Assembly: GCA_023374045.1 (NCBI GenBank)
Contig: CM041776.1
Span: 122,159,000 to 122,222,999, forward strand
Source of the DNA: Limonium bicolor
Lineage: Eukaryota; Streptophyta; Magnoliopsida; Caryophyllales; Plumbaginaceae
Direction: 5' to 3'
DNA: 64,000 nucleotides
The translations under genes were made by a program, and so were the position numbers. Under the pieces are notes generated by a model, which made no database searches, was not told the DNA's origin, and saw only the letters and a list, made by a program, of their open reading frames with translations. Below are positions 30,713 to 55,500 of this stretch, piece by piece; position 1 is the stretch's first letter, and each line of letters begins with the position of its first letter.

Positions 30713-30720
30713 AAGGGGGG
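30713..30720 (+). promoter_or_regulatory. Internal polypurine tract of C
   Basis: TTTTAAGGGGGGTAGAGC lies 1.5 kb before the terminal tract (32228-32235). It is preceded by GTGGGCGTAATC, like GGGGGCGTAACCC before the internal tract of B. Confidence 0.85.
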
Positions 30721-31504
30721 TAGAGCGATTAAAATATACCGTACGTAGGAGTACGTAGCGCATGGCACACATGCAGCAAACACTATTATTGTACGTAGAG
30801 TACAAGTGTTACGATTGTGTTATGTTACTTGAGGTAATATTGTGATGTATTATGTGTATGAACATAAATATATTTTAGTTCGCATTAGTTATGGCGAATA
30901 GGAAAGGGAGAACAGATAGAGTGTTCTTATCCTAATTCCGATATTTATGCAAACGTTGCGAACACTAAACAATAAACGCCTAACTTGTTATCTCCGGTTG
31001 AGAGTTCAAGTAGGTCTATCTGGTAGCTTCGATGGGAGATGGCAAATAAAAGGAGTAGAAAGCTCCATATCATATGATTTGTGACTCGGTATGAAACCGA
31101 GTATTGGAATGCGATGAGTGAGTCGGCATGAGACCGATGTATAGCCTAGTGGAGGTAAAACCTCTAGGAATTGTATGAATAATTATAAGTCGAGTGAACT
31201 TGGTACGTGGTTAGGATACATGACCCTATATGCCGGTGATTAGGTTAATTACACTAGTTGACTTGTGTATCTATGGGATACGAGGTGGTAAATATCAAGA
31301 GGAAACGAGATTAGAAGTGAATAAACAATTGATTGATTGAATTTGACGTGGGAAGTTGAACTTGATCCTGGTCCGATCAAGGGAAACCGAACACAAATTG
31401 AGGTGAGAGATAGTTCAACACTGACGCTGACCACGTCGGGGTTGAACGATTCTCGAAACTTCCTACAAGTGGACACAGATATGAATGGAAATTGGAATTT
31501 AGGC

Positions 31505-31715
31505 GTCACTCGAAGAGCCGTGGACCGTGGAGTCCTTCGCCATTAGACCGGTGTGTCTGCGAGTGACATCACCCAGAGAGTGGACCGCAGAGCCCTTTGT
31601 CATTAGACCGGCGTGTCTGTGGGTGACTAAGGAAATAAGGTGACTGCCCGAGGAGCCGTGGACCGCAGTGTCCTTCGTTATGATCAAACCGGTGTGTCCG
31701 CGGGTAGTAGACGTT
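31505..31715 (+). repeat. Three imperfect ~70-90 bp repeats in C spacer
   Basis: Each unit has a GTGGACCG(T/C)(G/A)G core, then TTCG or TTTG with an ATTAGACCGG-like stretch, then TGTGTCTGCGAGTGA or a variant. The units start near 31515, 31580 and 31655. Confidence 0.8.
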
Positions 31716-31885
31716 GGTTGGGTTGGGGATCGTCAGGTCCTGGTCTTTAAGACTGCTTCCCTGTGAGTTGTCAACGTTAACTATATGTGCACACATACAT
31801 GTGGAATGATGTGTGAGTATCCTCGCGAGATACTAACATGTAGATAGGGATGCGTGGAGTATCCCTTGCAAACACCTTTGAGTAC

Positions 31886-31990
31886 TTTATGAGTTTTGCA
31901 CCTTGTCTAGTGCTGTGTATATGAGTTTGCACCTTGTCTAGTGCTGTGTATATGAGTTTGCACCTTGTCTAGTGCTGTGTACTATGAGTT
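31886..31990 (+). repeat. ~32 bp tandem repeat, three copies, in C spacer
   Basis: TATGAGTTTGCACCTTGTC plus TAGTGCTGTG is repeated three times head to tail, with a fourth partial copy near 32038. No coding role is visible. Confidence 0.9.
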
Positions 31991-32227
31991 TTACACTGTT
32001 GATATATATACCGCTGAGTACTTTTGTGATAATTGGATGTGCACCTTGTTAGTGATGTGATATGATGAGTTTATCCATGAGTTGGCTATTTGATATATGC
32101 TGTATGTATAGACTAGGTCTGAACCTAGTGGGAGTTACTCCCTAGCAATGGACTGTTGGTTACTTAGTGGAACTTGATTCCTTAGGTGAACTGTAGAGGA
32201 TTAAGGACTTCGGGACGAAGCCTTTTT

Positions 32228-32235
32228 AAGGGGGG
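32228..32235 (+). promoter_or_regulatory. Terminal polypurine tract of C
   Basis: CTTTTTAAGGGGGGTAGAC is directly before the 3' LTR and preceded by the small hairpin ACTTCG-GGA-CGAAG. It primes plus-strand synthesis. Confidence 0.93.
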
Positions 32236-32240
32236 TAGAC

Positions 32241-35200: not shown

Positions 35201-37266
35201 GGAAAAGAATTACAAACATTGGATATGGAATGTTAGGACTGTACATGTGATAATAAGGATTGATAATGCAAAGTATTGTTTACCACATTGAATTTGGAAA
35301 AAGAAAAAAAAAGAGAGAAACAAACCTTAGAAAATAAATACTAAGGTGAAATGTATGGTGTATGACAAGAATCATACATGCAATATAGAAACAAACTATA
35401 TGATGTACAAACATACATTAGGTTACATGCGATAACAAAAGCTCAACTATAAGTATATTAATATACGAGACAAGACTACGCTTGTAATATAACACTTTTC
35501 CAATCTCGAGTTAAACCTAAAACCCGACAAACATTGACAGTTAATAACGGGGGTTAACCGGGAGGTATTAGTGACGGTACGGGGTACCGTAGAATTTTGT
35601 GTTGTTATACAGTATGCTAATCAGTAGCATTATGTATTGTATAGACTGTTAGAGACGACGCACGGAGCATAGGATCTTGCTGATTCATACTCCACCGTAA
35701 TACTTTCAGGGTGAACGGTATGTTATTTATGTGGCTTGATTGTCTCTGAGGATTTCCTCAGTTCAGACATTGTGTGAAAATCTGTGATAAGATTGAATGT
35801 CTGCTTGTGTGAATAATATGCTTGAGTTGTGTATTAATGCTGCTTATTATTACTGTTGTGCGATAACAGTACCGTTCGTATATATGAACATATTATAAAA
35901 CGAACTAGCGGCAATGATGCTATCTTATATGTGTAATATAAGGAACGTAAGTAAAACGTTGTAGCATTAGGATAATAAGATATATAAAATATCTGAGACT
36001 TATATACGGAGCATTGGCCTCTTTAACGCCGCTCTCGTATCTAGCACTGGATCCCGAGTCGACATACTCAGGATTGGACTACGACCTTGGTCTGCTGTGT
36101 TAGAAAAAAAAGAATAGTAAAGCGATGCGATGGTATAGATAAGTTTATCAAGGATGTGGCTCTTGCTGTGAATGTGATCCATTAACGATACTAGGACACC
36201 GTGTGGTAGCCGTAAGTATCTGGATAAATTTCCAACGAACTACAGATTGTTCGTAGGACGGAGACTCTACCGCTGGAGTGGCTATTGCCGTGGGTGACCC
36301 GCCATAAGAGATGGGTAACTTAGAGACACGTCGTTCTAACGAGACGTTGTCATTAGACATGACTGAACAATTACGAACGACTATATTAACTCGTACATTA
36401 GGCGAACATTATTTGGGCTTGCATGCCAAAGACGAGAGTTCATACTCGTTTATAATTCTCGTTACTTCGCCTTGTTGTTCATTGGTTGTGCTTTGTGGTT
36501 ATGTGTGGTATGTTGGTGGATTTGTTTGAACGAGCCATTGTGCTCATATTGTGTGTTGTGAACTGGTTGTGTCGAGTCACCGTACTCATGTGTGGATTGT
36601 GGTTGGGTGTCTGGTCGAGTGAGTCGCTGAACTCAATTATGAAATATTAAGTGTTTGTTGGAATGGAGTCTCTGTACTCATATAAGCGCTGCAAACGCTT
36701 TCAGTGGTTTATTACGATGCGATGTGTGAAGCCGGGGGCTTGTTTGTTATTTGAGATTACTGCAATATATATTGTTGTTTTACAGTTTCAACATTGAACT
36801 ATTTGTATGGAAACGAATTGCATACTCTCGACCAAATAACTGAATGGTCCGAGGGTGCACGACAGTCAGGTAATAACATACTCAGCAGGGGCTGATTCCA
36901 TACCACAAACTACCATTTTTGCAGGTATGCAACTTCCGGTGTCGGCAAAGAGAGTGACGCGCTGGGTAGTTTGATTACAGTTATTTAAACATGCACTGTT
37001 GCATTTTAACGAACCTAGAAACATGTATAGGTTTTGGATACGTAGAAAGCTCACTGTGAATGTATTTTATATTGGTTTTGGGAGTTTAGATCTATCTCTT
37101 GTTGTCACTGCGAGAAAATGTTTCGTATTTAAGAGCTTATCAGGAAGCACGTTATTACTCGTATGGGCGAGCAAGAACGGTGACCAGTAGTCAATTGTTG
37201 AGATTACCGCTGCGATTATATTGTTAAGTAAGATGATTAGGAGCCGAATAGAGTAGGGGTGTTACA
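32241..37266 (+). repeat. Element C 3' LTR (5026 bp)
   Basis: It starts TGAAATACCCCTAACC directly after the polypurine tract and ends GGGGTGTTACA, followed by the duplication GTAGA. It is the pair of 21794-26834. Confidence 0.94.
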
Positions 37267-37271
37267 GTAGA

Positions 37272-37892
37272 GCCTCTTGGATGTGCACATGTGTGCACTA
37301 AATTTTGTCGTTTCGTATGCGGGGCATACAGTACGAGGTTTGTCTTTTTGTTTGTTTCGTATGCATTGCATACAGTGAATTGGTGGTGTGCGGGGCACAC
37401 GAGGTTTTGTTGGTTATGTTTGGTACGCGGGGCGTACGTTGTTGGTTTGTTTGTGTGTGATGTGCACTTGTATGTATGTATCTTATGAGATACCTGTTTG
37501 AATGTTGTATTTACACCCATGTGTGTAATACTTTTCTTATGCTACTTGTGATATATATATATATATATATATACCTTGTAGAATGATTACATATGGTATC
37601 GCCTAGATACGAAATGAATCATTAGAGATGGAATGTGGAACGATGGTATGTTATGGACACCTTGGGGAGGTTGTCAGGGTTGGTAGAATTGATAGGAAAT
37701 AATGGTGCTGATGGATCACCTATATCCATATATGATTGAACTAACGCCACAAAGTGATTGCTATGTGATGTATAAGCACAACATGATGTATTAAATGATA
37801 TATCACATAGATATACATTATGGGAATAATGGGTAGTCATATATTTTTATACTTACCTATTTGATTAAGCGACTTCGGGACGAAGTCTTTTT
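37272..37892 (+). other. B spacer between its two polypurine tracts
   Basis: This is the remaining internal part of B after C. It contains a hairpin array (37283-37493), a (TA)n tract at about 37551-37573 and no gene. The 98-codon and 65-codon ORFs here come from the periodic hairpin array. Confidence 0.8.
37283..37493 (+). repeat. Six-hairpin array with covarying stems (B spacer)
   Basis: Stems are GTGCAC/GTGCAC (37283-37298), GTATGC-GGG-GCATAC (37315-37329), GTATGC-ATT-GCATAC (37359-37373), GTGTGC-GGG-GCACAC (37386-37400), GTACGC-GGG-GCGTAC (37423-37437) and GTATCT-TATG-AGATAC (37478-37493). Each has a 6-bp stem, and substitutions in one arm are matched in the other. Confidence 0.88.
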
Positions 37893-37900
37893 AAGGGGGG
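37893..37900 (+). promoter_or_regulatory. Terminal polypurine tract of B
   Basis: TTTTTAAGGGGGGTAGAT adjoins B's 3' LTR (TGAAATACTCC), from which it is now separated by the insertion of D into TTGAA. It is preceded by GACTTCG-GGA-CGAAGTC, a perfect 7-bp hairpin. Confidence 0.92.
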
Positions 37901-37904
37901 TAGA

Positions 37905-37909
37905 TTGAA
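37905..37909. repeat. Target-site duplication of D, left (TTGAA)
   Basis: TTGAA recurs at 52570-52574. D landed across the exact junction of B's polypurine region and 3' LTR. Confidence 0.95.
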
Positions 37910-40900
37910 TGTAACACCCCAACCGTTAATCCTATGCTTACCGTCCAATCATCCCTTAATTCCATCAATACACAGCGGAAGACTACTACTTACTACGGCG
38001 GGTGGTACAACACCGCTAACCGCCCATACGGCTAGCTAGGCTATTCTACTTACGGTGACGGTCTGATGAACATAATATACCGAGCTACTATATTACTTGC
38101 CAAAATACCACATACCGAATACTTACATCAATGGATCACCGAGTATTTAAGTGTATTCAATTACATCCCAATTCAACTTCCCAAAAGAATGAGTTTCTAC
38201 AAGCTACTCGTCTATACCCCAATCCAATACTTCCACTATCCAAAAAGGTGTACCCCATGGTACACCGGCTAACAAAACTTACAGCCGTGTACTACTTAGT
38301 ACACCAATCATAATTCATTGTTTACAATCCAGAAAGGAATCAAAAGAAACTAGCACATCTCTTCACGGCCTTCATCCTTCTCTTGTACCTGCGTGTAGTA
38401 AAAACATTGCCCCTAGGGGCTCAGCAAAAGCTGCGCATGAACTCCGCATATACCGCGTGCTAGCTAGGGCACGCCGACTATTTGACGTCCACTAAGCATG
38501 CGATTCATTAATTTCATACATACATGCTTTGCATACAACATACGTACATATACAATACATTAACATTCCAAGGCAACAATACAATAGCATACACACAATA
38601 CTTACCTTCACCGGGTTAGCCAAGTTACGCATCCGGGTTAATCGGAATGCTATTTACTCTTTTACTCATTTCACTTTACTTTCTCTTACTTGAACTTACT
38701 TACTTTCATTTACTTTACTTACTCATTCTTACTTACTTACTTATACTCTAGTTAAGTCGGTATGACCTCCGGCCCTGGGGACTACTCCGTCCCACCTCCG
38801 GGATTTACTTGACTCACCAATCCGGGATGCTACCCATTTAAGGGATTTGGGCCGCGAACTAGTTTAAGAGTCAGGAATTGGAACCAACCTCTCGTGACTC
38901 CGCATCCTCACGCGTGGCCGAAACTATATCGGACTTCTACTCATTCCAATTTAATTACCAATTTAAGTTAGAATGGTTAGCGTGTTAGGAACAAGTTAGA
39001 AGTCCAAGCACAATCACAATCGGTCACAGTACGTTACAACATCCATACAAGCATTCATATTCATCCATACATTTCATGAATTATACAAACTAAGATTTAA
39101 GAAGAATATTCACAACATACAGCACTACATATTCACAAGTATGCATAGTAACTCCGATTTGTGCATTTATCTTATTTGGTGATCAATTAGCACACAACAC
39201 ACAAATCAGAGTAACCAAGATAGCATACGGGGCATGAGGAATTCATACCGTTCACCGTTGTACTTGTATCCCAACGTTCCTCCGGTGTTCACAAATCAAA
39301 TCCTATGATGTACATACAATTGAATGATTAAATCTAACTATCATTAGCTTAACTACATTACTCTTATGTCTTTCTAGTTCATACTTACTATGTCCTTATA
39401 CTTCTTACACTTACACATTACTTACTTATCTTTCTTTACCTTAAGTTTTATTTTCTACTTAATAGTGGCATACTTACATACATGTACATATATTATATAT
39501 GTGGGTATACATATATATATATATAATTATTATTTAATTCAAATTAATTTTTTTTGTATGACCGGACCGACCTTGCAAGTCCGGTCGCAAGTCCGGTCCG
39601 TTCCAGTAGCTTTCATTACCGAATTTTTCTGGCCCGACCGAACTTGCAAGTCCGGTCCAAGTTCGGTCCATTCCAGAAGGTTTCATCGGGGAATTTTTCT
39701 GGCTCGACCGAACTTGCAAGTCCGGTCGCAAGTTCGGTCCATTACAGAAGGTTTCATCGGGGAATTTTTCTGGCTCGACCGAACTTGCAAGTCCGGTCGC
39801 AAGTTCGGTCCATTCCAGTAGGTTACAGACGGGAGAATTTTCTGGTCTGACCGAACTTGCAACTCCGGTCGCAAGTTCGGTCCATTCCAGTAGGTTACAG
39901 ATGGGAGAATTTTCTGGTCCGATCGAACTTGCAAGTCCGGTCGCAAGTTCGGTCCATTCCAGAAGCTTTCCCGTCTTTGTAAATCTGGGCTCGACCAAAC
40001 TTGCAAGTCCGGTCGCAAGTCCGGTCCGGCCCAGTACTTCAGTTTTAAATTCTGTTTTCAGTCCCTCTTCTTACCCATTACTTCCCCATTGTTCCTACAC
40101 TTAATCCCACATGTTTTACCACTAAATAAACCTCCTAATGCACCCTAGTTCATTCATTAACTCTTCACACATCTTTATACTAATTCACACACCTAATCTT
40201 CCAAGTTTCATTTCAACACTTACACTAGTTCTTCCTAATTACATTATGCTATAGATTTTGCCACTTACACTCCCCTTCTATAACTCCCTCTTCTAATGTC
40301 GTTTCTAATACCTCTAATGCATTACAACTACATTAACTATCTCTCCCAACTCACCCACCAATTACCTCAATCAAAATCTATTACACACACTCATTAGTCA
40401 CCTAGTTTCTAGTTCACTAAGTGTTCTAATCCTAGGCAAATTTTGCCATAGTCTCCCCTATATTTTATAACCCCATTGTTTATACACATCTTATTACCCA
40501 ATCCACCTGTTTCAATAGCATTCATATACAAGGCTCCCATACACAATTACCAATACTAACACACTCTTAAAAATTCCTGCACTCCACACCACAATCCCAA
40601 AATAGTTTGTGACAGTTTTTTTAATTGTTTTCAAAGCTTCAATACAATTTAATTCCTCCTCTATATTACACTATGGTTCATTACCATTCTAAAATACCAA
40701 TTTTACTCTTTTAAAATCTGCTACACATATATATACAAGACTACACAAAGACAAGCATATTTTACCTTGTTATTTCATAAGCTTGTCCTTTCTTCCTCCT
40801 TCCTCTTCCCTTCTTCTTTCTTCTCCCTTTCCACCGGTTCTTAGTAACCAAATCCTCTAGCACTACAACCCATTCACATATGCATTTAAATACCCCATTT

Positions 40901-41928
40901 TAACACACAATTTAACCCTAACCATTATGTAAGTTCTAATGTAGGTTTTAGGGTTTAGAATTTATATTACCTTCCAAGGGTATGAGTAATGCTTGGAGTG
41001 GCTCAAGAACAAGTTTCCAACTCCACCAATGAGGCCAAAATCGGCTAGAGTACAAGGGAACCAAACAAGGTTTTAGCTAGATTTTTGTTTTGCCCATAAG
41101 GCTATAAAAATAATGGAGTTTCAAGAAGATTTTTACCTCAATAGAACAAGGAGAAGGAGGTGGTGCTAATGGTAGTCTTGAAGCTCCAAATGGGGCATAC
41201 CCATAAAAACGAAAGTTCTCCTTTTTGATTTTTGAAAATAGGGAAATGTTCCTTTTGGTGAAAGGAATCCAATGGTGTAGTTTTTATAATTTTTGGAAGA
41301 GATTTGAGGGGGTTACAAGAGGAGAGAAGTGAGGTTTTTAGTGGGGGTTGCTAATCCTCCATTGTTGTCGCTGGGAATAAGAAGGGAGAAAAGAAAGAGA
41401 GTGAGGGAGGGTGTGCATACGTGAGTGAAGAGAATGAAATGGAGGAGAGAGAGTGTGAGGGTGTAAAGTAAGGTGAGTTTGTTTTTTACTTTTTAATTTC
41501 TTTGTCTTTTATAAATAAAAGAAAGTTAAGAGGGTGTGTGTGTGGGGGATAGAAATCGGCTAGCACCACAGCCCACATGGGTTGGACACACTAGTTTGGT
41601 CTATTTATGTTTCTACCCCACAACTTCCCGTTTTTGACAGTTTTTACTAATTTCTTGTTTTATTGATTTTATTGGTTCTAAAGCTTCACTAATATTTATT
41701 AATGATTATTTAGCTGACCAAAATTGTTACGAGTCTATTTGACCCGCTTAAAGTCACGTTTTCCCGATTTCCTCGAAAAACGTGCTTTAAGGTTCGTTAG
41801 TGATTTTAATCCGTTTTAAGGATCTGTTTTCTTCGGGATTTGTTCCCTCATGATTATTTATACTTAATTAAGCTTCTAAATTATTCATTAGCCTATTTAA
41901 TCACTATTTTTAATTACAGGGTATTTCA
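37910..41928 (-). repeat. Element D 3' LTR (4019 bp)
   Basis: On the + strand it runs from TGTAACACCCC to GGGTATTTCA. In element orientation it starts TGAAATACCC and ends GGGGTGTTACA, as in B and C. It differs from 48485-52569 by scattered changes, many of them C/T or G/A (for example ATACACAG versus GTACGCAG near 37970 and 48543) and by a 26-base stretch missing near 41585. Confidence 0.94.
39560..40030. repeat. ~71 bp tandem array of hairpins in D 3' LTR
   Basis: Seven units are present. The core is GACCGAACTTGC (arm), a loop AAGTCCGGTC, and GCAAGTTCGGTC (arm), a perfect 12-bp stem, spaced by TTCCAGAAGGTTTCATCGGG or a TTACAGACGGG variant. First and last units have GACCGGACC-type arms. Long ORFs in several frames on both strands arise from the periodicity and are not genes. 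Confidence 0.92.
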
Positions 41929-41933
41929 ATCTA

Positions 41934-41943
41934 CCCCCCTTAA
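41934..41943 (-). promoter_or_regulatory. Terminal polypurine tract of D
   Basis: On the - strand, TTCTTAAGGGGGGTAGAT directly precedes the LTR start TGAAATACCC. Confidence 0.92.
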
Positions 41944-42297
41944 GAAACTTTGCCCTCAAAATTGCTCAAGGTTAATAGTTTATTAATTCTTCTCATTAGG
42001 CAAACCAATTGCCCTAATGTGTCTTACTACACCTATGAGGTGTTTACCTCCTTTCACACTGCAAGCATACACAATCCAAGCACAATACGAATTCCCACAC
42101 ACAATTCATCATTTCCATACATGCCATCACATTCACATTACACAATACACATTACACGTACATACACATTGTACATACACATCCATACACACAGATTACA
42201 CATACGCTTCGCACTACATGTGCCATACAAAACCTATTACAATACCTACACACCATGCAACGCTTACCCCGAAGCAATGCAAAAGTAAAAGGCTCTA
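41944..42297 (-). other. D spacer between the two polypurine tracts
   Basis: About 350 bases of low-complexity sequence, rich on the + strand in ACACAT/TACACA words (about 42060-42240). The two overlapping 96- and 112-codon ORFs reflect this composition. No gene is seen. Confidence 0.75.
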
Positions 42298-42309
42298 CCC
42301 CCCTTAAAA
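42298..42309 (-). promoter_or_regulatory. Internal polypurine tract of D
   Basis: On the - strand, CCCCTTTTAAGGGGGGTAGA is followed by GCC, about 40 bases after the pol stop. It matches the internal tracts of B and C. Confidence 0.88.
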
Positions 42310-42349
42310 GGGGTAAGACTCGTACCCGTATTACTAAATGCTAGACTCC

Positions 42350-43879
42350 CTAGTCTATGAACAACTGTGGGTACTTAGCCTTCATGGCATCTTCCAATTC
42401 CCATGTCGCTTCTTCGACATCATGGTTTGACCATAGGACCTTCACCATTCGTATAGACTTATGGCGAGTGTCTCTGGTATTCCTATCCAGGATTCTCACC
42501 GGGGTTTCAACATATCGCATAGTCGGCTCGATGGAGAGTCTCTCGGGCTCTAAGACATGAGAAGGATCAGCAATATACTTCTTGAGTTGTGACACATGAA
42601 ATACATCATGGACACGCCCCAAGTCCTCAGGCAGTGCTAACCTGTAGGCTACGGATCCAACTCTTTCGGTAATAGTGTACGGCCCTACAAACTTTGGGCT
42701 CAGTTTGCCCTTCTGGCCAAATCGGAAGACACCCTTCATAGGTAAAACGCGCAAGAACACTTGGTCGCCCACGGCGAACTCAAGGTCGCGTCGTCTCACA
42801 TCCGCATAGGATTTCTGTCTGTCTTGGGCTGCCTTCATATTGGCTCGGATTTGTTGCACTTCCGCTTGGACTTGTTCTAGATACTCCGGTCCTATGATGA
42901 CCGCTTCGCTTGACTCATCCCAACACAAGGGTGTACGGCAGGGTCTACCGTATAGAGCTTGGAAAGGCAACATCTTAATCGAGGCATGATAACTATTATT
43001 GTATGAAAATTCGATAAGATGAAGCTTGTCTAACCAACTCCCCTGAAAGTCCAAGGCACATGCCCGAAGCATGTCCTCTAGTGTCTGGATGGTCCTTTCT
43101 GTCTGACCGTCGGTCTGAGGATGGAAGGCGGTACTCAACTTCAATTCTGTACCCAACGCTTCCCTTGTAGCTCTCCAGTATCTCGAAAGAAATCTGGTGT
43201 CGCGGTCAGATACTATTGTTTTCGGGACTCCGTGATGTCTGATAATCTCCCTGTCGAATAGCTCAGCTAGCTTCACTACCTTCCAGGTGTCCTTCATCGG
43301 TATGAATCTGGCAACCTTGGTAAGGCGATCGACTACAACCCAGATCATGTTGAGTCCTCCCCTGGTAGGTGGGAGTCCTACAACAAAATCCATTGAGATA
43401 TCATGAAACTTCCACTCCGGAACTGGCATAGATTGTACCATTCCGCCCGGTCTACGGTGTTCAAATTTTACCTTTTCGCATGTTAAGCATCTCAATACAA
43501 ATTCTGTCACATCCGACTTCATTCCAGACCACCAGAAGTACCTCTTCATGTCTTTGTACATCTTGGAGGCTCCCGGATGGACTGATAATGTGGAACTGTG
43601 TGACTCTCACAGGATGCGATCCCTTAGCTCAGCATTGCTTCGGGGGACGCATAGTCTGCCATTCAATCGAATCAAACCATCTTCATGTAGCTTGAAGTCA
43701 TACTTTTTATTCTCAAATGTACCATTCTCGATCTTGTGTCTGATTTCGGTTAGGTAAGGGTCGCTCAACTGAGCGTCTCACACCTCGTCAACCAAGCTAG
43801 AAGAAGCGAGTAGCGAATGGAGCGAGTGTGCTCGATGGCTCAGGGCGTCGGCTACAATGTTTGCCTTCCCTTCCTTATA
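42350..43879 (-). pseudogene. pol: D pol part 2: RNase H end, integrase and chromodomain, two TGA codons
   Basis: This continues in the same frame as the RT part after a TAG at 43880-43882. It begins with EGKANIVADALS, the end of RNase H. In-frame TGA codons lie at 43778-43780 and 43607-43609. The integrase zinc domain has His in LSVHPGASKMYKD and CLTCEKVK. The D,D-35-E core shows SMDFVVGLPP, IVSDRDTRF and GQTERTIQ, then GKLSPKFVGPYTI and VFHVSQLKKY. The chromodomain is at the end (MVKVLWSNHDVEEATWELE, ending PQLFID). There is no frameshift in 1.5 kb. Both TGA codons fit CGA changed to TGA. The product would insert the DNA copy into chromatin. Confidence 0.92.
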
Positions 43880-45732
43880 CTACAAGTTGATGTCGTAATC
43901 TGAAAGAAACTCCATCCATCTTCTCTGTCTCAAATTCAGTTCTTTCTGTGTGAATACATACTGTAAGCTCTTATGGTCAGAGTAGATGGTGATGCTTACC
44001 CCATAGAGATAGTGTCGCCATATCTTCAAGGCGAAGACAATGGCTCCTAACTCTAAGTCGTGTGTCGGGTAATTCTCCTCATGCTTTTTCAGCTGGCGGG
44101 AGGCATAAGCTACAACCTTGCCATGCTGCATGAGTACGCATCCCATTCCTTTGCCTGATGCATCACAATATACCTCAAATCCCTCTGTGCCCTCTGGAAG
44201 AGTAAGGATGGGCGCTGAGGTCAATGAGTCTTTAAGTTTCTGAAATAATAACTCGCACTCGTCTGTCCATACAAACGGTGCATCTTTCTTCATCAATGTC
44301 GTCATGGGCTTAGCGACTTTCGAGAAGTCCTTTACGAATCTCCGGTAGTAACCGGCTAGACCAAGAAAGCTCCTAATGTCGGTAACAGTCTTAGGTCTAG
44401 GCCATGATCGTACAGCTTCTATCTTAGAAGGGTCAACTGAGATACCTGCGCTCGAGATGACATGACCAATGAATGATACCTGATCTAGCCAGAACTCGCA
44501 CTTGGAGAACTTCACATACAGCTGGTTCTCGCGCAGTGTCTCAAGTACTTTCCTCAAATGAAATTCATGCTCTTCTGCTGATTTGGAGTACACAAGGATG
44601 TCGTCGATGAAGACAACAACTGAAGTGTCCAACTGTTCACTGAATAGACGATTCATGAGGTCCATGAATTTAGCTGGTGCATTTGACAAACCGAATGGCA
44701 TCACCGTGACTTCATAGTGGCCATATCTGGTACGGAATGTCGTTTTCTCGATATCTTGCTCTTTGATAGCAATCTGATGATACCCAGAACGGAGGTCAAT
44801 CTTGGAGAAGACTGATGCTCCTTTCAGCTGATCAAATAGGTCGTCGATGCGTGGCAATGGGTATTTATTTTTGACTGTGACCGCATTCAGCTCGCGGTAG
44901 TCAATACAAAGTCGGAGGCTACCGTCTTTCTTCTTCTTCACAAAGAGGATCGGTGCTCCCCAGGGTGATACGCTCGGGCATATGAACCCTTTGTCAAGTA
45001 ACTCACGCAACTGCTCTTTCAGTTCTGTCATTTCAGCAGGTGCCATGCGGTACGGTGCCCTAGCAATGGGACCGGTACCTGGCAGAAGATCAATTTCAAA
45101 TTCCACTGCTCTCGGTGGTGGCATGCCGGGTAGCTCCTTAGGGAATACATCGGGAAATTCGGATACAATCGGTACATCGTCATTGAACTCTGGATCTCGC
45201 TCCAGGTCTTGTACATAACATATATACACTTCATGGCCCTTTCTGAGCTCCCGGTACATAGCCATAGCAGATATAAGTGTGGTCGAAGGCTCTCTCGGTC
45301 TCTGGCGGTAAGATACAGTAACCCTAGAAGGACTCTTGAGCAGCAGTCGATGCTCGGCGCAGAGGATCCTACCCTTGTGCCTCTCCAACCAATTCATTCC
45401 GATGATTAAGTCGAATCCCAATCCATTGAATTCGATGAAGGAAATGGGAAACACTTCATTTTTTATTTCTATGGTGGCTGATTGGTAGTATTTGGTGCAC
45501 TTTACTCGCTCCTTCGATGGGAGAGTAACCATAAAATTCGGTAACTCATCCGCATCTAGCTTCAACCTCTTCACAAAAGATGGTGATACGAAAGTGTGAG
45601 AGGCGCCGGAGTCGAATAACACATTGGCATCAATGCCGTTCACTGGGAATGTTCCCGTTAAGATGGTGCCGCTTCTGCCGGCTTGTGCTTCGGTGAGGAT
45701 GCTCAGGTTACCTTCGGTACCGAGCCCACAAC
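43880..45732 (-). pseudogene. pol: D pol part 1: aspartic protease, RT and RNase H, ends at TAG
   Basis: The exon begins at 45732, after the acceptor TTCAATAG. The first codon is completed by the last G of gag exon 3, giving a continuous Gag-Pol frame. The protease active site is [10 protein letters not shown] (DSG near 45605-45613), and [13 protein letters not shown] follows. RT shows [46 protein letters not shown] and FIDDILVYS (44586-44612). RNase H shows [28 protein letters not shown] and [10 protein letters not shown]. The frame is open for over 600 codons until TAG (43880-43882), where the family has Gln before Tyr. The frame extends upstream to 45877 without an ATG; that part is intron or AlkB trailer. 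Confidence 0.93.
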
Positions 45733-45797
45733 CTATTGAAGTCACAATTGTATAAGTATTGATGGTGGACACAAGTGGAATTAAATCAACACTGCTC

Positions 45798-45803
45798 TTT
45801 ATT
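45798..45803 (-). promoter_or_regulatory. AATAAA between AlkB and pol
   Basis: AATAAA on the - strand lies 70 bases after the AlkB stop and 65 bases before the pol acceptor. It could polyadenylate a Gag-AlkB transcript. A single hexamer in AT-rich DNA is weak evidence. Confidence 0.4.
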
Positions 45804-45873
45804 GATAAACCAACCGTCATACAAACCGTGTCTCTAGTACACGTTACTAATACATTACATGGTACTATGAATT

Positions 45874-46613
45874 TCAATACTTCCTAAAGGTAAGGTTCAG
45901 GCGTCCTAGTTTCATGTGTGTGGCATTGATTATTGTCGGCGGTGCCGTATTCAACTTGATCTTGTTGATCCCGTGATACAGCATCCTAGAGTTTCCACCC
46001 ATGATTAGGACATCTCCTGATCTCAATACCAGTTTCTGTGTGAGGTCCACACGCTTCTGCTCGCTATACAGGAATACGGCGTCATCACCAATGGACCAAG
46101 ACACTACGGGCACTCCTTGTTCAAGAGATTCCGCTGTCTCGTCCTTGTCTTGGTGTAACCCAAGTCGTCCTTCTTTCTCATAGAACTTGACGATACAGAG
46201 GTCCGCTTCCAGTGCGGGAATCGGTTCATGTTCGCATTGTTGCGCCAGTTCTACTGCTTGTGTGACAAGTGTCTGAAATTCTGGAGGTATTGTTGGTGGC
46301 GTTGCTCCATCTTGTGTTCGTGTCTCCTGGTATGTCTTGGTATAAGGATTCCAGTCCTTTCCCAAGCACATCATTTTCAGTTTCATCTTCGCTCCACCGG
46401 GGAATTCGGGTGTGTAAAATCGACCTTGACCCGTTCCTAGCTCACTGCATCGTCGGATGATTGAGATTTGTGCTTCGGGTGTCAGGTATCCCCATAATAA
46501 GATCATACCTGGTCGGATGACCTGACACTGTTCGTTGGTGTAGTAGTGGTTGGTGATGTCGATCTCTTCTTGATTCAGGTTTACCGGTATCGGATAACAG
46601 ATACTAAAGCTTC
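45874..46613 (-). CDS. AlkB-type Fe(II)/2-oxoglutarate dioxygenase exon carried by element D
   Basis: A 740-nt exon (acceptor ACCATAG before 46613) continues the gag frame in phase 1 for 245 codons and ends at TGA. Counting from the Met at 46506, it has [20 protein letters not shown] (30-49), the iron ligands His118 and Asp120 in [24 protein letters not shown] (134-148), [12 protein letters not shown], His178 in MLYHGINKI, and the 2OG-binding R-x-N-x-T-F-R signature (RLNLTFR, 202-208). This is the ALKBH1-like branch of plant AlkB homologues, enzymes that remove methyl groups from RNA or DNA. No catalytic residue is missing and there is no stop or frameshift. Where the family normally ends, so does this exon. 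It lies between the gag zinc knuckle and the protease. Substrate and activity are inference. Confidence 0.93.
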
Positions 46614-46767
46614 CTATGGTTACACATTTTATCTACGGTGAGTACTAGTTTCAACTACTTCATTTCATGCTCAATACACGCTTCAATTCATTTACTCATG
46701 CATTCACTCATACAATTACTGCAATACTTAGTCATGCTTCTCAAGGATTAAAGGTTCGGATAATTAC
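46614..46767 (-). other. Intron between gag and AlkB exon (D)
   Basis: GTAATT...ACCATAG, 154 nt. The same donor can also be joined to the pol acceptor at 45733/45732, making a 1035-nt intron that removes AlkB. Both joins preserve phase 1. Confidence 0.75.
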
Positions 46768-48256
46768 CTGGGCCGGACTTAGAACCGGACCCATCACGGT
46801 CGATAACATGAAGGACAGGCTGCCTCTGAGGTGCACCCCGCTGAGGTCCCCGGGATCCCTGTCCCTGTGGTGCCTGCTGGGCCGGTGCATCGCCAGATGC
46901 AACCTCCTTGCCTTCCCTTTGCTTGTAGCTTTGGGAGTTCCCTTTCGACTTAGCATTTTCTGGGCATCTATTGGCCGTATGTCCCGGTTTCTGGCAGCTG
47001 TAGCATTTGATTTCTCTCCCATAGTAGTCTTTGCCGGGATGGTCCTGGTTGCACTTTCTGCACACATAGGTGCGGCCATCTGAGAAGGTTTTGGTGAAAC
47101 CTGAGCCAGAACCTGAGGTTTAGAGGGTTAGCACATGTGTGCGTGGATATACTAATTATGGTACTTGTAAGAATGCGATTTAGGAATAGAAGTTTACCCT
47201 TAGATGGGTGTGATCTCAGTGGCTTTGCGGCCACCGGTGCAGAAGAACCTAGTTGAAGCAGCTCAACTGGTTTGCCCTGCTCAGCATGGGCACTGCTCTC
47301 ACTTGGGAAGTTCTTTTGAGTTTGATGAAAGAACTTCCCTTTCTTCTTTTTCCAGCTTTTACCCTGGTTCTGCTCCTCGACACTTATGTTCTTGCTATTG
47401 GCCTTGCGCTTCAGCGGGTTTCTTCATCCCTTAGCTGGCAAGTGATTTCGACGCGAGATGTCGCGTGATAACACTCCTGAAGTTTTAGGTATTAGCCGGG
47501 ATTCTCATTTAAGAAAGGATAAGGAAGAGATTCCATGAATTCAAGGAATTTACGGAATTGAAATGATACTAAGGGTTAACCGATATTTACCTGAAGGGAG
47601 GTAAATCGAGTGTAGCCCATACCGTACCGAAGGCGATGGCTCAGACCGCCATAGAAGCGATCGACCAACACCTGGCCGGTGTATCCTAGATCGGGAAGGA
47701 GACAGAGAATGGAGGTAAAGGTGCGGTAGTACTCATCCACAGACATCTTGTCTGTCATCTTCAAGGCATCCAGCTCTAGCCTTTTCTTGGTTTTCACATG
47801 CTCCGGATAGTACTTGGATCGGAGGAGTGATGCAAAGGACTCCCAATCGAATGTGGGGTCGTTGACGTGCTCATGCTTGACTAGCTTCCACCAATCCATG
47901 GCTGCGTCTTTCAGGTAGTAAGCAGCAACTCTGACTCGAACTCCAGCAGGAGCTTCGAGAGTTTCGAACGCCATCTCCATCTCGGAGATATAGGCTTCTA
48001 GCTTAGCCGGATCACTCTCGCCCCTAAAGCAAGGAGGGCGGAGTTCCGCTACAGCTTTTACCCAGTTAGCTTCTCTGGGTGGAGGGGGAGGGATTGGCCC
48101 CGCTTGAGTTTGCTGGTTTTGTTGGTTCTGTTGCATAGCTTGGATTACTTGTGGTAGCATCTGTGCTACTGTGGCAGCGACGATTTCAGCTATCGTCTGC
48201 GTGTCGGGTCCGTCATTGCCCCCTCCTCTAGGGCGACCTGGACCTCTTCCTGACAT
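46768..48256 (-). CDS. gag: D gag, three exons, one frameshift in exon 2
   Basis: Exon 1 (48256-47591, 222 codons) starts MSGRGPGRPRGGG, has a Gln-rich stretch and Pro-rich linker, then the capsid domain (YYLKDAAMDWWKLVKHEH, LLRSKYYPEHVKTKKRLEL, SVDEYYRTFTSILCLLPD). Intron 47590-47477 is GT-AG (114 nt). Exon 2 (47476-47198) holds a basic Lys-rich linker (GKFFHQTQKNF). Intron 47197-47113 is 85 nt. Exon 3 (47112-46768) holds YVCRKCNQDHPGKDYYG and the CCHC knuckle CYSCQKPGHTANRC. Exon 2 is one base short of the length needed to stay in frame. Loss of a C near 47409-47416 explains the TGA there. Positions and phases of both introns match B gag. Confidence 0.86.
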
Positions 48257-48451
48257 CTGAACATTTAGCAGTTACATTAGGCTCCGCAAGATATGACTCA
48301 AAGGTCTTGGAATTTAAACAAAGTATTGTTCCTAAGAACGTCAAGGGTATCCGTGGTTAACAACGGTAGTTCCTAGTTAGGTTTCAAAGTATCCGTCCTA
48401 AGACGGTTGAAATCCTAACGCGGTAATCCCCTATGCTCGGTACTTATGGAC

Positions 48452-48479
48452 ATCAGAGCGTAACTACGCTCTGATACCA
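48452..48479 (-). promoter_or_regulatory. D primer-binding site (tRNA-iMet) inside an inverted repeat
   Basis: On the - strand TGGTATCAGAGC covers 48479-48468. The inverted repeat ATCAGAGCGTA-GT-TACGCTCTGAT covers 48475-48452, an 11-bp stem. Compared with B and C (GCGG/CCGC), the inner stem differs on both arms and stays paired. Confidence 0.93.
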
Positions 48480-48484
48480 CTTTT

Positions 48485-50109
48485 TGTAACACCCCAACCG
48501 TTAATCCTATGCTTACCGTCCAATCATCCCTTAATTCCATCAGTACGCAGCGGAAGACTACTACTTACTACGGCGGGTGGTACAACGCCACTAACCGCCC
48601 ATACGGCTAGCTAGGCTATTCTACTTACGGTGACGGTCTGATGAACATAATATACCGAGCTACTATATTACTTGCCAAAATACCACATACCGAATACTTA
48701 CATCAATGGATCACCGAGTATTTAAGTGTATTCAATTACATCCCAATTCAACTTCCCAAAAGAATGAGTTTCTACAAGCTACTCGTCTATACCCCAATCC
48801 AATACTTCCACTATCCAAAAAGGTGTACCCCATGGTACACCGGCTAACAAAAACTTACAGCCGTGTACTACTTAGTACACCAATCATAATTCATTGTTTA
48901 CAATCCAGAAAGGAATCAAAAGAAACTAGCTACATCTCTTCACGGCCTTCATCCTTCTCTTGTACCTGCGTGTAGTAAAAACATCGCCCCTAGGGGCTCA
49001 GCAAAAGCTGCGCATGAACTCCGCATATACCGCGTGCTAGCTAGGGCACGCCGACTATTTAACGTCCACTAAGCATGCGATTCATTAATTTCATACATAC
49101 ATGCTTTGCATACAACATACGTACATATACAATACATTATACATTCCAAGGCAACAATACAATAGCATACACACAATACTTACCTTCACCGGGTTAGCCA
49201 AGTTACGCATCCGGGTTAATCGGAATGCTATTTACTCTTTTACTCATTTTACTTTATTTTCTCTTACTTGAACTTACTTACTTTCATTTACTTTACTTAC
49301 TCATTCTTACTTACTTACTTATACTCTAGTTAAGTCGGTATGACCTCCGGCCCTGGGGACTACTCCGTCCCACCTCCGGGATTTACTTGACTCACCAATC
49401 CGGGATGCTACCCATTTAAGGGATTTGGGCCGCGAACTAGTTTAAGAGTCAGGAATTGGAACCAACCTCTCGTGACTCCGCATCCTCACGCGTGGCCGAA
49501 ACTATATCGGACTTCTACTCATTCCAATTTAATTACCAATTTAAGTTAGAATGGTTAGCGTGTTAGGAACAAGTTAGAAGTCCAAGCACAATCACAATCG
49601 GTCACAGTACGTTACAACATCCATACAAGCATTCATATTCATCCATACATTTCATGAATTATACAAACTAAGATTTAAGAAGAATATTCACAACATACAG
49701 CACTACATATTCACAAGTATGCATAGTAACTCCGATTTGTGCATTTATCTTATTTGGTGATCAATTAGCACACAACACATAAATCAGAGTAACCAAGATA
49801 GCATACGGGGCATGAGGAATTCATACCGTTCACCGTTGTACTTGTATCCCAACGTTCCTCCGGTGTTCACAAATCAAATCCTATGATGTACATACAATTG
49901 AATGATTAAATCTAACTATCATTAACTTAACTACATTACTCTTATGTCTTTCTAGTTCATACTTACTATGTCCTTATACTTCTTACACTTACACATTACT
50001 TACTTATCTTTCTTTACCTTAAGTTTTATTTTCTTACTTAATAGTGGCATACTTACATACATGTACATATATATATAGTACATATATATATATATATATA
50101 TATGTGGGT

Positions 50110-50140
<31 letters not shown>

Positions 50141-52569
50141 TTATTAATTCAAATTAATTTTTTTTTGTATGACCGGACCGACCTTGCAAGTCCGGTCGCA
50201 AGTCCGGTCCGTTCCAGTAGCTTTCATTACCGAATTTTTCTGGCCCGACCGAACTTGCAAGTCCAGTCGCAAGTTCGGTCCATTCCAGAAGGTTTCATCG
50301 GGGAATTTTTCTGGCTCGACCGAACTTGCAAGTCCGGTCGCAAGTTCGGTCCATTCCAGAAGGTTTCATCGGGGAATTTTTCTGGCTCGACCGAACTTGC
50401 AAGTCCGGTCGCAAGTTCGGTCCATTCCAGTAGGTTACAGACGGGAGAATTTTCTGGTCCGACCGAACTTGCAACTCCGGTCGCAAGTTCGGTCCATTCC
50501 AGTAGGTTACAGACGGGAAATTTTCTGGTCCGACGAACTTGCAAGTCCGGTCGCAAGTTCGGTCCATTCTAGAAGCTTTCCCGTCTTTGTAAATCTGGGC
50601 TCGACCGAACTTGCAAGTCCGGTCGCAAGTCCGGTCCGGCCCAGTACTTCAGTTTTAAATTCTGTTTTCAGTCCCTCTTCTTACCCATTACTTCCCCATT
50701 GTTCCTACACTTAATCCCACATGTTTTACCACTAAATAAACCTCCTAATGCACCCTAGTTCATTCATTAACTCTTCACACATCTTTATACTAATTCACAC
50801 ACCTAATCTTCCAAGTTTCATTTCAACACTTACACTAGTTCTTCCTAATTACATTATGCTACAGATTTTGCCACTTACACTCCCCTTCTATAACTCCCTC
50901 TTCTAATGTTGTTTCTAATACCTCTAATGCATTACAACTACATTAACTATCTCTCCCAACTCACCCACCAATTACCTCAATCAAAATCTGTTACACACAC
51001 ACTCATTAGTCACCTAGTTTCTAGTTCACTAAGTTTTCTAATCCTAGGCAAATTTTGCCATAGTCTCCCCTATATTTTATACTCTCACCCCATTGTTTAT
51101 ACACATCTTATTACCCAATCCACCTGTTTCAATAGCATTCATATACAAGGCTCCCATACACAATTACCAATACTAACACACTCTTAAAAATTCCTGCACT
51201 CCACACCACAATCCCAAAATAGTTTGTGACAGTTTTTTTAATTGTTTTCAAAGCTTCAATACAATTTAATTCCTCCTCTATATTACACTATGGTTTATTA
51301 CCATTCTACAATACCAATTTTACTCTTTTAAAAATCTGCTACACATATATATACAAGACTACACAAAGACAAGCATATTTTACCTTGTTATTTCTCAAGC
51401 TTGTCCTTTCTTCCTCCTTCCTCTTCCCTTCTTCTTTCTTCTCCCTTTCCACCGGTTCTTAGTAACCAAATCCTCTAGCACTACAACCCATTCACATATG
51501 CATTTCAATACCCCATTTTAACACACAATTTAACCCTAACCATTATGTAAGTTCTAATGTAGGTTTTAGGGTTTAGAATTTATATTACCTTCCAAGGGTA
51601 TGAGTAATGCTTGGAGTGGCTCAAGAACAAGTTTCCAACTCCACCAATGAGGCCAAAATCGGCTAGAGTACAAGGGAACCAAACAAGGTTTTAGCTAGAT
51701 TTTTGTTTTGCCCATAAAGCTAGAAAAATAATGGAGTTTCAAGAAGATTTTTACCTCAATAGAACAAGGAGAAGGAGGTGGTGCAAATGGTAGTCTTGAA
51801 GCTCCAAATGGGGCATACCCATAAAAACGAAAGTTCTCCTTTTTGATTTTTGAAAAGAGGGAAATGTTCCTTTTGGTGAGAGGAATCCAATGGTGTAGTT
51901 TTTATAATTTTTGGAAGAGATTTGAGGGGGTTACAAGAGGAGAGAAGTGAGGTTTTTAGTGGGGGTTGCTAATTCTCCATTGTTGTCGCTGGGAAGAAGA
52001 AGGGAGAAAAGAAAGAGAGTGAGGGAGGGTGTGCATACGTGAGTGAAGAGAATGAAATGGAGGAGAGAGAGTGTGAGGGTGTAAAGTAAGGTGAGTTTGT
52101 GTTTTACTTTTTAATTTCTTTGTCTTTTATAAATAAAAGAAAGTCAAGAGGGTGTGTGTGGGGGGGATAGAAATCGGCTAGCACCACAGCCCACATGGGT
52201 TGTTAAAATCTTATTTACAATATTGGACACACTAGTTTGGTCTATTTATGTTTCTACCCCACAACTTCCCGTTTTTGACAGTTTTTACTAATTTCTTGTT
52301 TTATTGATTTTATTGGTTCTAAAGCTTCATTAATATTTATTAATGATTATTTAGCTGACCAAAATTGTTACGAGTCTATTTGACCCGCTTAAAGTCATGT
52401 TTTCCCGGTTTCCTCGAAAAACGTGCTTTAAGGTTCGTTAGTGATTTTAATCCGTTTTAAGGATCCGTTTTCTTCGGGATTTGTTCCCTCATGATTATTT
52501 ATACTTAATTAAGCTTCTAAATTATTCATTAGCCTATTTAATCACTATTTTTAATTACGGGGTATTTCA
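48485..52569 (-). repeat. Element D 5' LTR (4085 bp)
   Basis: Pair of 37910-41928. In element orientation this is the upstream LTR, next to the PBS, and would carry the promoter. Four T residues and one C separate it from the PBS on the + strand. (TA)n tracts near 50070-50140 are longer than in the other copy. Confidence 0.94.
50171..50640. repeat. ~71 bp tandem hairpin array in D 5' LTR
   Basis: Seven units matching 39560-40030, with the same 12-bp stems. Single changes, such as a C missing near 50534, break individual arms. Confidence 0.92.
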
Positions 52570-52574
52570 TTGAA
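52570..52574. repeat. Target-site duplication of D, right (TTGAA)
   Basis: Second copy of 37905-37909. Its last four bases are also the first bases of B's 3' LTR. Confidence 0.95.
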
Positions 52575-55500
52575 ATACTCCAAACTAATAAAACATGGAT
52601 TAAACATCTAATCACATTAATTAACCTAAACATTCCTTAAAAGTCAACTGAGAACAACAGTAGTCAACACAAAGCAAGTTATTTCACCCTTTGACTATTT
52701 ACGGTAAATAAATACCCAAATGAACTTCTTAGGACCTAAAACTTTGTCCTAAGCTTATTAACACATTACTAAACATATTACAATTGTTGGAAAACACTCC
52801 AACACAAAGAACAAGCATTTACATGCTTCAAGGTCAAGTATGGCAAAAATGTGCTCTAAGAAAACCTTAAAGGTCTAATGACCTCAAAATGATATAAAGT
52901 TGGATTCCATGATCAAATATCATGTAAGGAACACAAAAAAACTGTTATCAAAGAAAACTGAGCTCAGAAACACCTTGCGACTCAAAATGTGCACTAAAAT
53001 TCCTTAAAGCACGTTTTTGTGTATGAGCTCTAAGATAATGACTTTTTGTCACTGTAAAGACTATATTAAGTTCTTTATAACATTAATGTGACATGATAGA
53101 CTATATTATAAAGTCTAAATCAAAGTTTGAAAATAAAATCAAATGGGCAATTTAGTATGAATAGTACCCAAAAATAACATTTTAATTACTAAGTATTAAC
53201 CTTGGTCAATTGTCACCCATTGACCACACCCCCCATTGCTGACCTCCTTTGGCTATAATGCCCACTCATTAAGCTACCTATAAACAAATAACTAGCTAAT
53301 TTGGTGAGTCGCCTAATTACTATTTGAAAAGTAATATATTAATGACTTAAAAGCAAATCCAGCTTAATCTTCTCATTTCCTTCATTCCCAGCCGACACAG
53401 CAGCTCCATCCTATCTATTTGCTTCTCCAAAACCGTGGCTAACTCACCATATACAGAGAAGAACACCTTGCTACCTAGGTAAGCTTAATTAGTCATTTTA
53501 TGTTCATTTTCTTCACAATTCGTTCCTCTTTCCATGGAGCCAAGCATCAACCATTTCCATCAATGTTCTTAGGTTGTTTTGGAGGTTAAATGGAGGGTGT
53601 ATCTCGGCATTAACAAGGGAAGGAGGTGGAGAAACCTAATCTTGTTCTTAAGGTATAAAAATGTGCTTTAAGCACTTATCCTTTGATTCTCATCAATTCC
53701 GGTTGTAAAGCTTTGTTTTATAAGCTTATAATCTTCATATTAACATACTTATTCAGTTGATATATCAAGAGCTTCAAGGTATAGCCAAATCCAAGCCAAA
53801 AACACCATTTTTGGCATTTTAAACAAGGTAAAAATTAGCCATCTTCTAATCTGAGTTATACCAGTTTAAAGCTTGGTTTTAGTAGCTCTTTTGATGCTCT
53901 TTAACTTGTGTAAATTTAGGCCAAAGTCAGCCTTGGTAACCTTGGTGTTCTAAGGTAAATTTTACCTTGAATATTGACATTAAACACTTCTTATGGTTAG
54001 ATCTTGCTTGGAGACTAATCATGCCTTAATTTTTGTTTGAAAACATGTAAATGATGCTGTGGAAATTTTATCCTAAGCAGGCCGTGGCCAAACAAGGCCT
54101 TAACTAGGCAAAAACAAGGTATAAATCACTTAAACCTACACTTGGTATATTATTATGTGTTTATATATATATATATATATATAATAAATGTTCCGTGAGT
54201 GAATGGTTATATTAAGGTCTTATTTTGACCTTAGGTGATTAAGGAATGGTTTAATAAATTTTATAACTAATTAATAAGCATAATTGTCAAATTTAAGACA
54301 TTATGTGGAAAATTGGTAAATAAGGAAAATATATATGTAAGGCCAAGAGTTTAAAGTACTTTTGGGCATTTATGTGTAATTTATTTTATAAGCTAATGTT
54401 TGTAATAAGGCCATGTACTTTAGGCCATTTTATTTATGCATTTATAAGCTTTTAATTAAGTTTAGGTGCTAAATATAAATTACCGCAAGGAATTGGGGTT
54501 ATAGTGTAAATAAATTAAATTTGGGGGCTATAGATTAATTAAGCCGAAAATTAGAGATTTAAATGAGTTTATATAAAAATTATAAGATTATATAAAGTTT
54601 TGGGGTTAAATGGTAATTTCTGAAAAATAAGGGTACAAATCGTAATATATGGTTATTGATGGTCAAGGAAATATTAAGGTGGTCAACCTTGACCATATGG
54701 TAGGTTTTGACCAAATTAAATAAGTTAGATAACTTATTTAAGGTTTTGTTATAAGATAAGTATTTAATTGTAACAATTTAATAACATATGTGGTATATAT
54801 GTTATTACCGAAAATAAAGGGTGTATAATGGTATTATAAACACCCATGGGCTATTAGGAATTTTTAGGAATTTATTGGGTTGTTTTTGGAATTAAAATAA
54901 ACTATATATGTATAATATATAGTTATTATGTCATTATGACACTTTGGAATATAAGAGGGGGTGGAAATGTAATATACCGAAAGTATATGGTTAGTAAGGG
55001 TAATTATAACCCTTTAGTGAAATTTGGTGATTTTTGGAATTATATAAGAGAATTTAATAAGATATGTGTATAATATATAGTTTTAATGATATTATAAAAC
55101 TGTATGTTATAAATGGGCCAAATGGCAATTATAGAATATATTGAGGTCTGTTCGGAATTTTACAAAAATATAACCATAGGTTATACCATTTTAAGTTAAA
55201 AATGTTATATTATATGATATATATATATAACATGTTATAAATAATGGGGTGATTTTGTAAATAAAGGAAACTATGGAGTATGAAAAAGAATAAGGTTTTT
55301 GATAAGGTGCCCATGCGGCAATATATATAATTTTGTATGAAAACTATAGGTTATAAATTAAAGGGAATAAAAATATCATATTATATGATATCAGTTTATG
55401 GTATAACATTACATAATGTTATGTGGTCAAAATGAAATTAAAATAAAGATAAGGGCTTTACCGAAATTATTAAGAAATGGGATATGAATTTTAGACTATG

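Follow-up and report, generated by a model that had tools for sequence, protein, structure and literature searches.

The window analyzed here is a stretch of 64,000 nucleotides of Limonium bicolor (assembly GCA_023374045.1, contig CM041776.1, positions 122,159,000 to 122,222,999 of the forward strand), and it is made up of several nested LTR pairs. One pair encloses an element on the minus strand, element D, whose LTRs, target-site duplication, gag, and protease-reverse transcriptase-RNase H-integrase order are those of a Ty3/Gypsy LTR retrotransposon. Between the zinc knuckle of its gag and its protease lies an open frame for an AlkB dioxygenase. The features of element D, in window coordinates, are as follows.

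37905..37909, no strand: left target-site duplication TTGAA, flanking the LTR
37910..41928, minus strand: 3' LTR, paired with 48485..52569
42353..43606, minus strand: pol in another frame, with integrase (Integrase_H2C2, E = 1.9e-14) and a weak chromodomain (Chromo, 19.7 bits)
43883..45732, minus strand: pol, with protease (RVP_2, E = 5.2e-27), reverse transcriptase (RVT_1), and RNase H (RT_RNaseH)
45733..46767, minus strand: predicted alternative intron (1,035 bp), whose removal would take out AlkB and link gag with the protease; acceptor AG in 29/30 D copies, AlkB-protease part without codon rhythm
45874..46613, minus strand: ALKBH1-type AlkB exon, bounded by a predicted acceptor and the stop codon; PF13532 E = 1.8e-43, OsALKBH1 best in PDB, dN/dS 0.14; frame open on to 46632
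46614..46767, minus strand: predicted gag-AlkB intron of 154 bp; donor GT in 28/30 and acceptor AG in 30/30 D copies, donor phase 1 in 11/12
46768..47112, minus strand: gag exon 3 with the CCHC zinc knuckle (zf-CCHC, E = 1.1e-5); splice borders predicted
47198..47408, minus strand: predicted gag exon 2; acceptor in 28/29 and donor in 25/29 D copies
47591..48256, minus strand: gag exon 1 (capsid; Retrotrans_gag, E = 3e-16), from ATG to predicted donor; donor in 27/29 D copies
48468..48479, minus strand: primer-binding-site-like TGGTATCAGAGC, just past the 5' LTR
48485..52569, minus strand: 5' LTR in element orientation; 97.3% identical to the other LTR, K2P 0.0105
52570..52574, no strand: right target-site duplication TTGAA, flanking the LTR

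The LTR identity of 97.3% counts gaps; over 4,017 aligned pairs there are 29 transitions and 13 transversions, and because the resulting K2P distance is so small, the insertion of element D is, by this measure, recent. Both LTRs contain arrays of an approximately 71-bp tandem repeat (39552-40027 and 50163-50637). The Chromo match at the integrase C terminus (E = 8.1e-4) is under its cut-off of 25.1 bits, and the integrase core match is under its Pfam cut-off as well. We take the primer-binding-site-like sequence to be of the tRNA-Met type and element D to resemble the Tekay/Del clade of chromoviruses; this site, its tRNA type being our assumption, and the weak chromodomain point away from the Tat/Ogre type. 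Rfam gave no match in 37800-52700.

The neighbors of element D in the window are related to it to different degrees. Element A (1-8654) is a Gypsy element without AlkB, with LTRs 99.4% alike and a pol 53 to 69% identical to that of D. The outer element B (LTRs 12634-17917 and 52570-57830) has a gag on the plus strand at 18137-18787, 44% identical to that of D, and a zinc knuckle at 19291-19422 on the same strand, about 500 bp beyond its gag; tblastn with the D proteins found neither AlkB nor pol in it, and it may be a non-autonomous relative of D. Element C (21765-37266) has long LTRs at 21765-26834 and 32212-37266. No gag or pol was found in it with the D proteins, and it is perhaps non-autonomous.

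The AlkB frame runs on the minus strand from 46632 to 45877, 252 codons from stop to stop, and the last base of its stop codon is 45874. Read on the plus strand, 45874-46613 is interrupted by many stops. Position 46613 is the first base past a predicted 3' splice site (CCATAG/GAAGC, minus strand). The frame matches Pfam PF13532 (2OG-FeII_Oxy_2) as a full-length domain, residues 42-250 aligning to profile positions 1-194 of 194 with 149.4 bits against a gathering cut-off of 31.2. With the zf-CCHC and RVP_2 matches on its two sides, this bears out the first-pass annotation, which had placed a stop-free AlkB exon between the gag CCHC knuckle and the protease.

The same annotation had called the enzyme intact, with all its catalytic residues, and here the result is divided. 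H160-x-D162, H220, and R244-x-N246-x-x-x-R250 are present in the window copy. In the other gap-free D copies, the iron ligands H160, D162, and H220 are kept in 49/49, and R244 and R250 of the RxNxxxR motif are kept in 48/49 and 47/49, respectively. Residue 149, however, is Lys in the window copy only and Asn in 49/49 others. According to PMC9289625, 2-oxoglutarate is stabilized by one Asn and one Tyr in this AlkB region, and from the N-x-Y motif we read N149/Y151 as the probable equivalent of that pair. On this alignment, the D family has the 2-oxoglutarate-binding Asn of the NxY motif and the window copy does not; because of N149K, the word "intact" fits the AlkB of the D family and not that of the window copy.

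We searched the genome from which the window comes (2.92 Gb in 2,686 contigs, eight of 136 to 540 Mb) for further copies. The AlkB search returned 150 scored matches, all near-copies of 93 to 100% identity, 129 of them without an internal stop by hand count in a list that favors good copies; the 52,462 and 52,096 "first look" candidates of the genome AlkB searches are not copy counts. Among the fetched AlkB copies, the gag knuckle lies upstream in 29/30, the exception, L011, being cut on the gag side, and pol lies downstream in 30/30. To avoid choosing copies by their AlkB, we also sampled with a query of 430 pol residues, which gave 98 scored matches, one being the window itself. The first 46 non-window matches, minus six already listed with AlkB alongside, gave 40 pol-chosen copies, and when the upstream stretch was fetched, AlkB was present in 38 of them. 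The remaining two of the 40, L072 and L102, have other DNA upstream of pol, some of it similar to an interruption of L008 close to its protease, and no AlkB was found in 4 kb more; the pieces shared by these three are perhaps a nested insertion common to a subfamily. These counts answer the doubt raised in the first-pass annotation, that AlkB might sit in a single copy or be lacking from other D-like copies. To judge from the copies compared, AlkB is not a chance insertion in element D.

Genome searches with a host protein and with another protein, P0002, uncovered further families. The AlkB of family M (L036, L038, and L039) is 62 to 73% identical to the window copy, that of families K1 and K2 52 to 60%, and that of L040 60%. 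Over the 34 loci L036-L069, gag lies upstream in 32 (not L058 and L068) and pol downstream in 32 (not L049 and L068), and the order gag-AlkB-protease is kept in four diverged families (D, M, K1, and K2) of one genome. A reverse transcriptase tree sets (D, M), with SH-aLRT support of 94, apart from (K1, K2), with 80, two M rows being under half filled, and the AlkB sequences divide in the same way in their own tree, which does not place L040 firmly. The agreement of the two trees therefore indicates a long shared history of AlkB and polymerase in these elements.

Selection on AlkB was measured by the Nei-Gojobori method. Of the pol-chosen copies, 21 read without gaps (the other 19/40 were gapped, partial, or without AlkB) and gave a mean dN of 0.0271 and a mean dS of 0.1936, a ratio of 0.140. 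As a null, the differences of each pair were re-placed randomly on like bases, with CpG kept apart; its dN/dS is 0.599, and 210/210 pairs fall below their own null. A ratio of 0.14 between element copies, against 0.60, is thus not near 1. The 30 top-scored AlkB copies, window included, gave 0.084 with a null of 0.565 (248/250 sampled pairs below), and the gag capsid stretch gave 0.069 (19/30 copies). Within K1, the AlkB ratio is 0.114 (24 copies, L040 included; 246/250 pairs below null), and within K2 it is 0.062 (6 copies; 11/15 pairs below null). Between families, it is 0.171 for D-M and 0.065 for K1-K2; from D/M to K, synonymous sites are saturated, with a dN of 0.27 to 0.33. Element AlkB is, on these ratios, under strong purifying selection.

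Not every copy is open. Of the gap-free pol-chosen copies, 14/21 have no stop and 7/21 have one, and 13/21 are both stop-free and in possession of the seven catalytic residues. AlkB variants shared by copies fall on codon positions 1:2:3 as 23:14:64 and singletons as 40:28:52, as expected if selection acts on the transposing lineage while dead copies decay. One could read the N149K of the window copy and the stops in 7/21 pol-chosen copies as what dead insertions should look like, AlkB being functionless passive cargo from one chance insertion. The dN/dS range of 0.06 to 0.17 against a null of about 0.6, the HxD and distal His kept in 49/49 other D copies, and the same AlkB place in four families make that explanation extremely improbable.

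The nearest solved protein by sequence is rice OsALKBH1 (232 bits), followed by Escherichia coli AlkB (74 bits) and human ALKBH1 (43 bits); ALKBH5 is not among the 21 PDB sequences matched at an E value of ≤1. An AlphaFold model of the AlkB domain (pLDDT 89.3, pTM 0.88) has its best fold match, among the best 50 matches listed, in OsALKBH1 as well (TMq 0.82, 48% identity), and no ALKBH5 is among those 50. Relatives of the element AlkB go under the names ALKBH1C and ALKBH1D. By sequence and modeled fold, then, the enzyme is ALKBH1-type. It shares with rice OsALKBH1 (PDB 5xeg and 5xoi) and plant ALKBH1 genes this top match by sequence and fold, but differs from them in being intronless, inside a retrotransposon, and in a transposable element (TE) clade of its own.

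This clade appeared in the AlkB tree built with host ALKBH1 homologs: the TE sequences (15 rows) group together with SH-aLRT support of 99 and fall outside all named host genes sampled, on a long stem. Their basal place may be a long-branch effect. Because of this position and stem, no host donor can be named for the element AlkB. A host ALKBH1-like gene (L034) has introns, read from its frames, after ...ISVPEQ and ...LGLHQ, within the region carried by the elements, and the TE AlkB frames run unbroken through both places. Since the two host introns are absent in the elements, capture from a spliced host mRNA is the simplest reading and a likely one. The rankings of OsALKBH1 and the AlkB tree thus uphold the earlier view of a captured ALKBH1-like gene. 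As to the host genes themselves, L034 and L035, two ALKBH1-like loci 133 Mb apart on contig C3, are 99.4% identical over 3.3 kb, through either a recent duplication or an assembly artefact; among the proteins compared, host ALKBH1 is closest to P0147 of Dionaea (70%).

Proteins P0001, P0002, P0003, and P0005 fall inside the TE AlkB clade. A genome search with P0002 gave 141 scored places, 68 to 74% identical to it. Since its best match in the window's genome is 74%, P0002 is, on this evidence, from another species, and it is likely encoded within an element. A profile search with eight TE-clade sequences scored 7,995 candidates and matched 1,097 proteins, and among the best 120 of the 1,097, only P0001, P0002, P0003, P0005, and P0165 stand clearly above the bulk. 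P0165, from Artemisia annua, is 42% identical to TE-clade AlkB. In 44 longer annotated proteins with an AlkB inside, the Pfam lists hold no recognized gag, reverse transcriptase, or integrase family. Viral contigs gave two remote AlkB matches, 42% over about 52 residues.

How the enzyme would be expressed is a matter of frames and splice sites. The AlkB frame ends at its own stop. Relative to it, pol is in frame +1 in three D copies and -1 in the window copy; in M it is in frame but behind stops, and in K the frame varies and pol is again behind stops. GT at the end of gag exon 3 is found in 28/30 copies of D, 23/23 of K1, 6/6 of K2, and 3/3 of M; AG before AlkB in 30/30, 23/23, 6/6, and 3/3; and AG before the protease in 29/30, 22/23, 6/6, and 3/3, respectively. 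The gag exon 3 donor is in phase 1 in 11/12 copies of several families, L039 being out of phase, and by reading, the AlkB and protease acceptors are both in phase 1. Two points weaken the splice-site counts. Coding sequence overlaps or adjoins the acceptors of AlkB and protease, and their AG may be conserved on that account or another; and in K1 and M, where copies differ little, the introns are conserved throughout (majority share 0.94). The AlkB-protease interval of D is likewise well conserved (0.96), which counts against the splice reading.

Variants were counted by codon position in 29 D copies, L027 being left out as a near-duplicate of L026. They are distributed 16:20:16 in the AlkB-protease interval and 48:35:43 in the gag-AlkB intron, neither with a codon rhythm, whereas AlkB (29:8:36) and the sequence that directly follows the protease acceptor (29:27:48) do have one. 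The interval has changed length in 9/29 copies and has a pol-frame stop in 7/29. Because of the missing rhythm, the length changes, and the stops, this pattern suggests that the AlkB-protease interval behaves as an intron. Gag itself seems to be split by two more introns, whose border dinucleotides are found in 25 to 28 of 29 D copies (L011 was left out of the gag-exon border counts). In K1 (L041, L043, L067, and L069) and K2 (L042, L045, and L062), there is likely an extra intron downstream of AlkB, ITG/GT...AG/GTACC, which splits a short exon before the protease and is absent in D, M, and L040.

A common frameshift or readthrough from AlkB into pol was set back as a candidate, there being no shared frame between families and no codon rhythm in the interval. 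More broadly, the AlkB could be functional without Gag-AlkB splicing, if an ATG of its own allowed translation as a free protein or if pol were reached by frameshift or readthrough. The frame starts with ATG (ATGAAATTT) in 15/30 D copies, so a free AlkB protein is possible, but this codon is ACG or ATA in 13/30 and absent in 2/30. The pol frame is open across the AlkB-protease interval in the few D copies compared for frame; against frameshift or readthrough stand the variants without rhythm, the altered lengths, and the pol-frame stops of that interval, together with the stops and differing frames in M and K copies. We consider expression without Gag-AlkB splicing unlikely.

The reading we prefer, at a probability of roughly 60%, is that element D, itself young, belongs to an old plant Ty3/Gypsy lineage of several families whose ALKBH1-type AlkB, kept by purifying selection, is likely an alternative last exon spliced to Gag and is predicted to demethylate adenines in the nucleic acids of the element. 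An element would have captured the spliced mRNA of a host ALKBH1-type gene. Splicing from the phase 1 donor of gag exon 3 to the AlkB acceptor would give Gag-AlkB, ending at the AlkB stop, and splicing from the same donor to the protease acceptor would skip AlkB and give Gag-Pol, restoring the usual gag-protease order; unspliced RNA would serve as the genome. The Gag fusion would carry the enzyme into the particle, and there, ahead of reverse transcription or in its course, genomic RNA or cDNA would be cleared of N1- or N6-methyl marks. Carried with Gag, the enzyme would likely strip methyl groups from adenines of element RNA or cDNA, and single-stranded DNA or DNA-RNA hybrids would be as likely a substrate for an ALKBH1-type enzyme. 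According to PMC10469495, ALKBH1 demethylates 6mA with a preference for single-stranded or unpaired DNA, and according to PMC12786077, m6A leads the RNA of plant LTR elements into stress granules and ALKBH9B frees ONSEN RNA. Against this model stand N149K in the window copy and the stop in 7/21 pol-chosen copies, and its substrate is taken from the enzyme family only.

The targets of the protein might instead be host chromatin or host transcripts, to the benefit of the element, as reported for rice ALKBH1, which PMC10469495 describes as impairing PRC2 binding at some genes and which is the nearest solved relative of the element enzyme. Purifying selection on the copies, however, speaks for a benefit that acts in cis or within the particle, and we consider an action on the host unlikely. 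A wider form of the preferred reading would have an old intron-bearing lineage in which a captured ALKBH1 cDNA became the last exon of Gag, used by alternative splicing, with particles carrying their own adenine demethylase, in more than one plant species; defenses against adenine methylation would then have arisen in plant retrotransposons two or more times, from different ALKBH classes. We put this forward tentatively, at slightly under even odds.

The first-pass annotation knew of no described retrotransposon with this arrangement. As far as AlkB in a retrotransposon goes, that does not stand: Alvarado-Marchena et al. (2022; PMC9289625) reported AlkB in large Gypsy elements of Phalaenopsis, the Gypsy_Pa_2799 lineage, as a paALKBH5-like ORF2 with m6A demethylase activity in vitro; when they screened 121 angiosperm genomes, the domain turned up in no plant but Phalaenopsis. 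That lineage is also Gypsy, with long LTRs, many copies, and a PF13532 AlkB with its metal and cofactor residues. What stands is that the Limonium lineage differs in AlkB class (ALKBH1-type as opposed to ALKBH5-like), in position, and probably in Gypsy clade. In the orchid elements, gag and pol share one ORF and AlkB has an ORF2 of its own, whereas in the Limonium elements AlkB is a predicted alternative exon placed after gag and before the protease. The orchid reverse transcriptase is sister to Ogre (Tat), with a primer-binding site antisense to tRNA-Arg, whereas D has what is probably another primer-binding site, a chromodomain-like tail, and several families. Among the titles and abstracts listed in searches of the open-licence PMC literature, there were no AlkB-bearing retrotransposons besides those of Phalaenopsis.

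Two other systems are comparable in part. The plant LTR retrotransposons Ogre, EVADE, and BARE1 also have introns and use spliced RNA for different Gag and Pol products; the excerpts of PMC12786077 describe no splice choice among them that adds a captured enzyme, and splicing in Limonium is predicted only. Among plant RNA viruses, members of the Alphaflexiviridae, Betaflexiviridae, and Closteroviridae (as cited in PMC9289625) have AlkB domains that are likewise captured and thought to act on the virus's own RNA, but their carriers are viruses and not LTR retrotransposons, and we liken them by description only.

The Limonium case looks like a second, independent capture of AlkB by plant Gypsy elements, and what is new relative to Phalaenopsis is the enzyme class, the place in the element, and the predicted splice switch. 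With another class in another place, self-demethylation looks like a recurrent strategy, and the second capture suggests that plant retrotransposons are in fact held back by adenine methylation. The families offer many natural copies for testing whether methylation of element RNA or cDNA has an effect. If the predicted choice between Gag-AlkB and Gag-Pol is true, LTR elements would have a further, previously undescribed means of adding a protein, and a demethylase spliced onto the coat protein would aid escape from host methylation.
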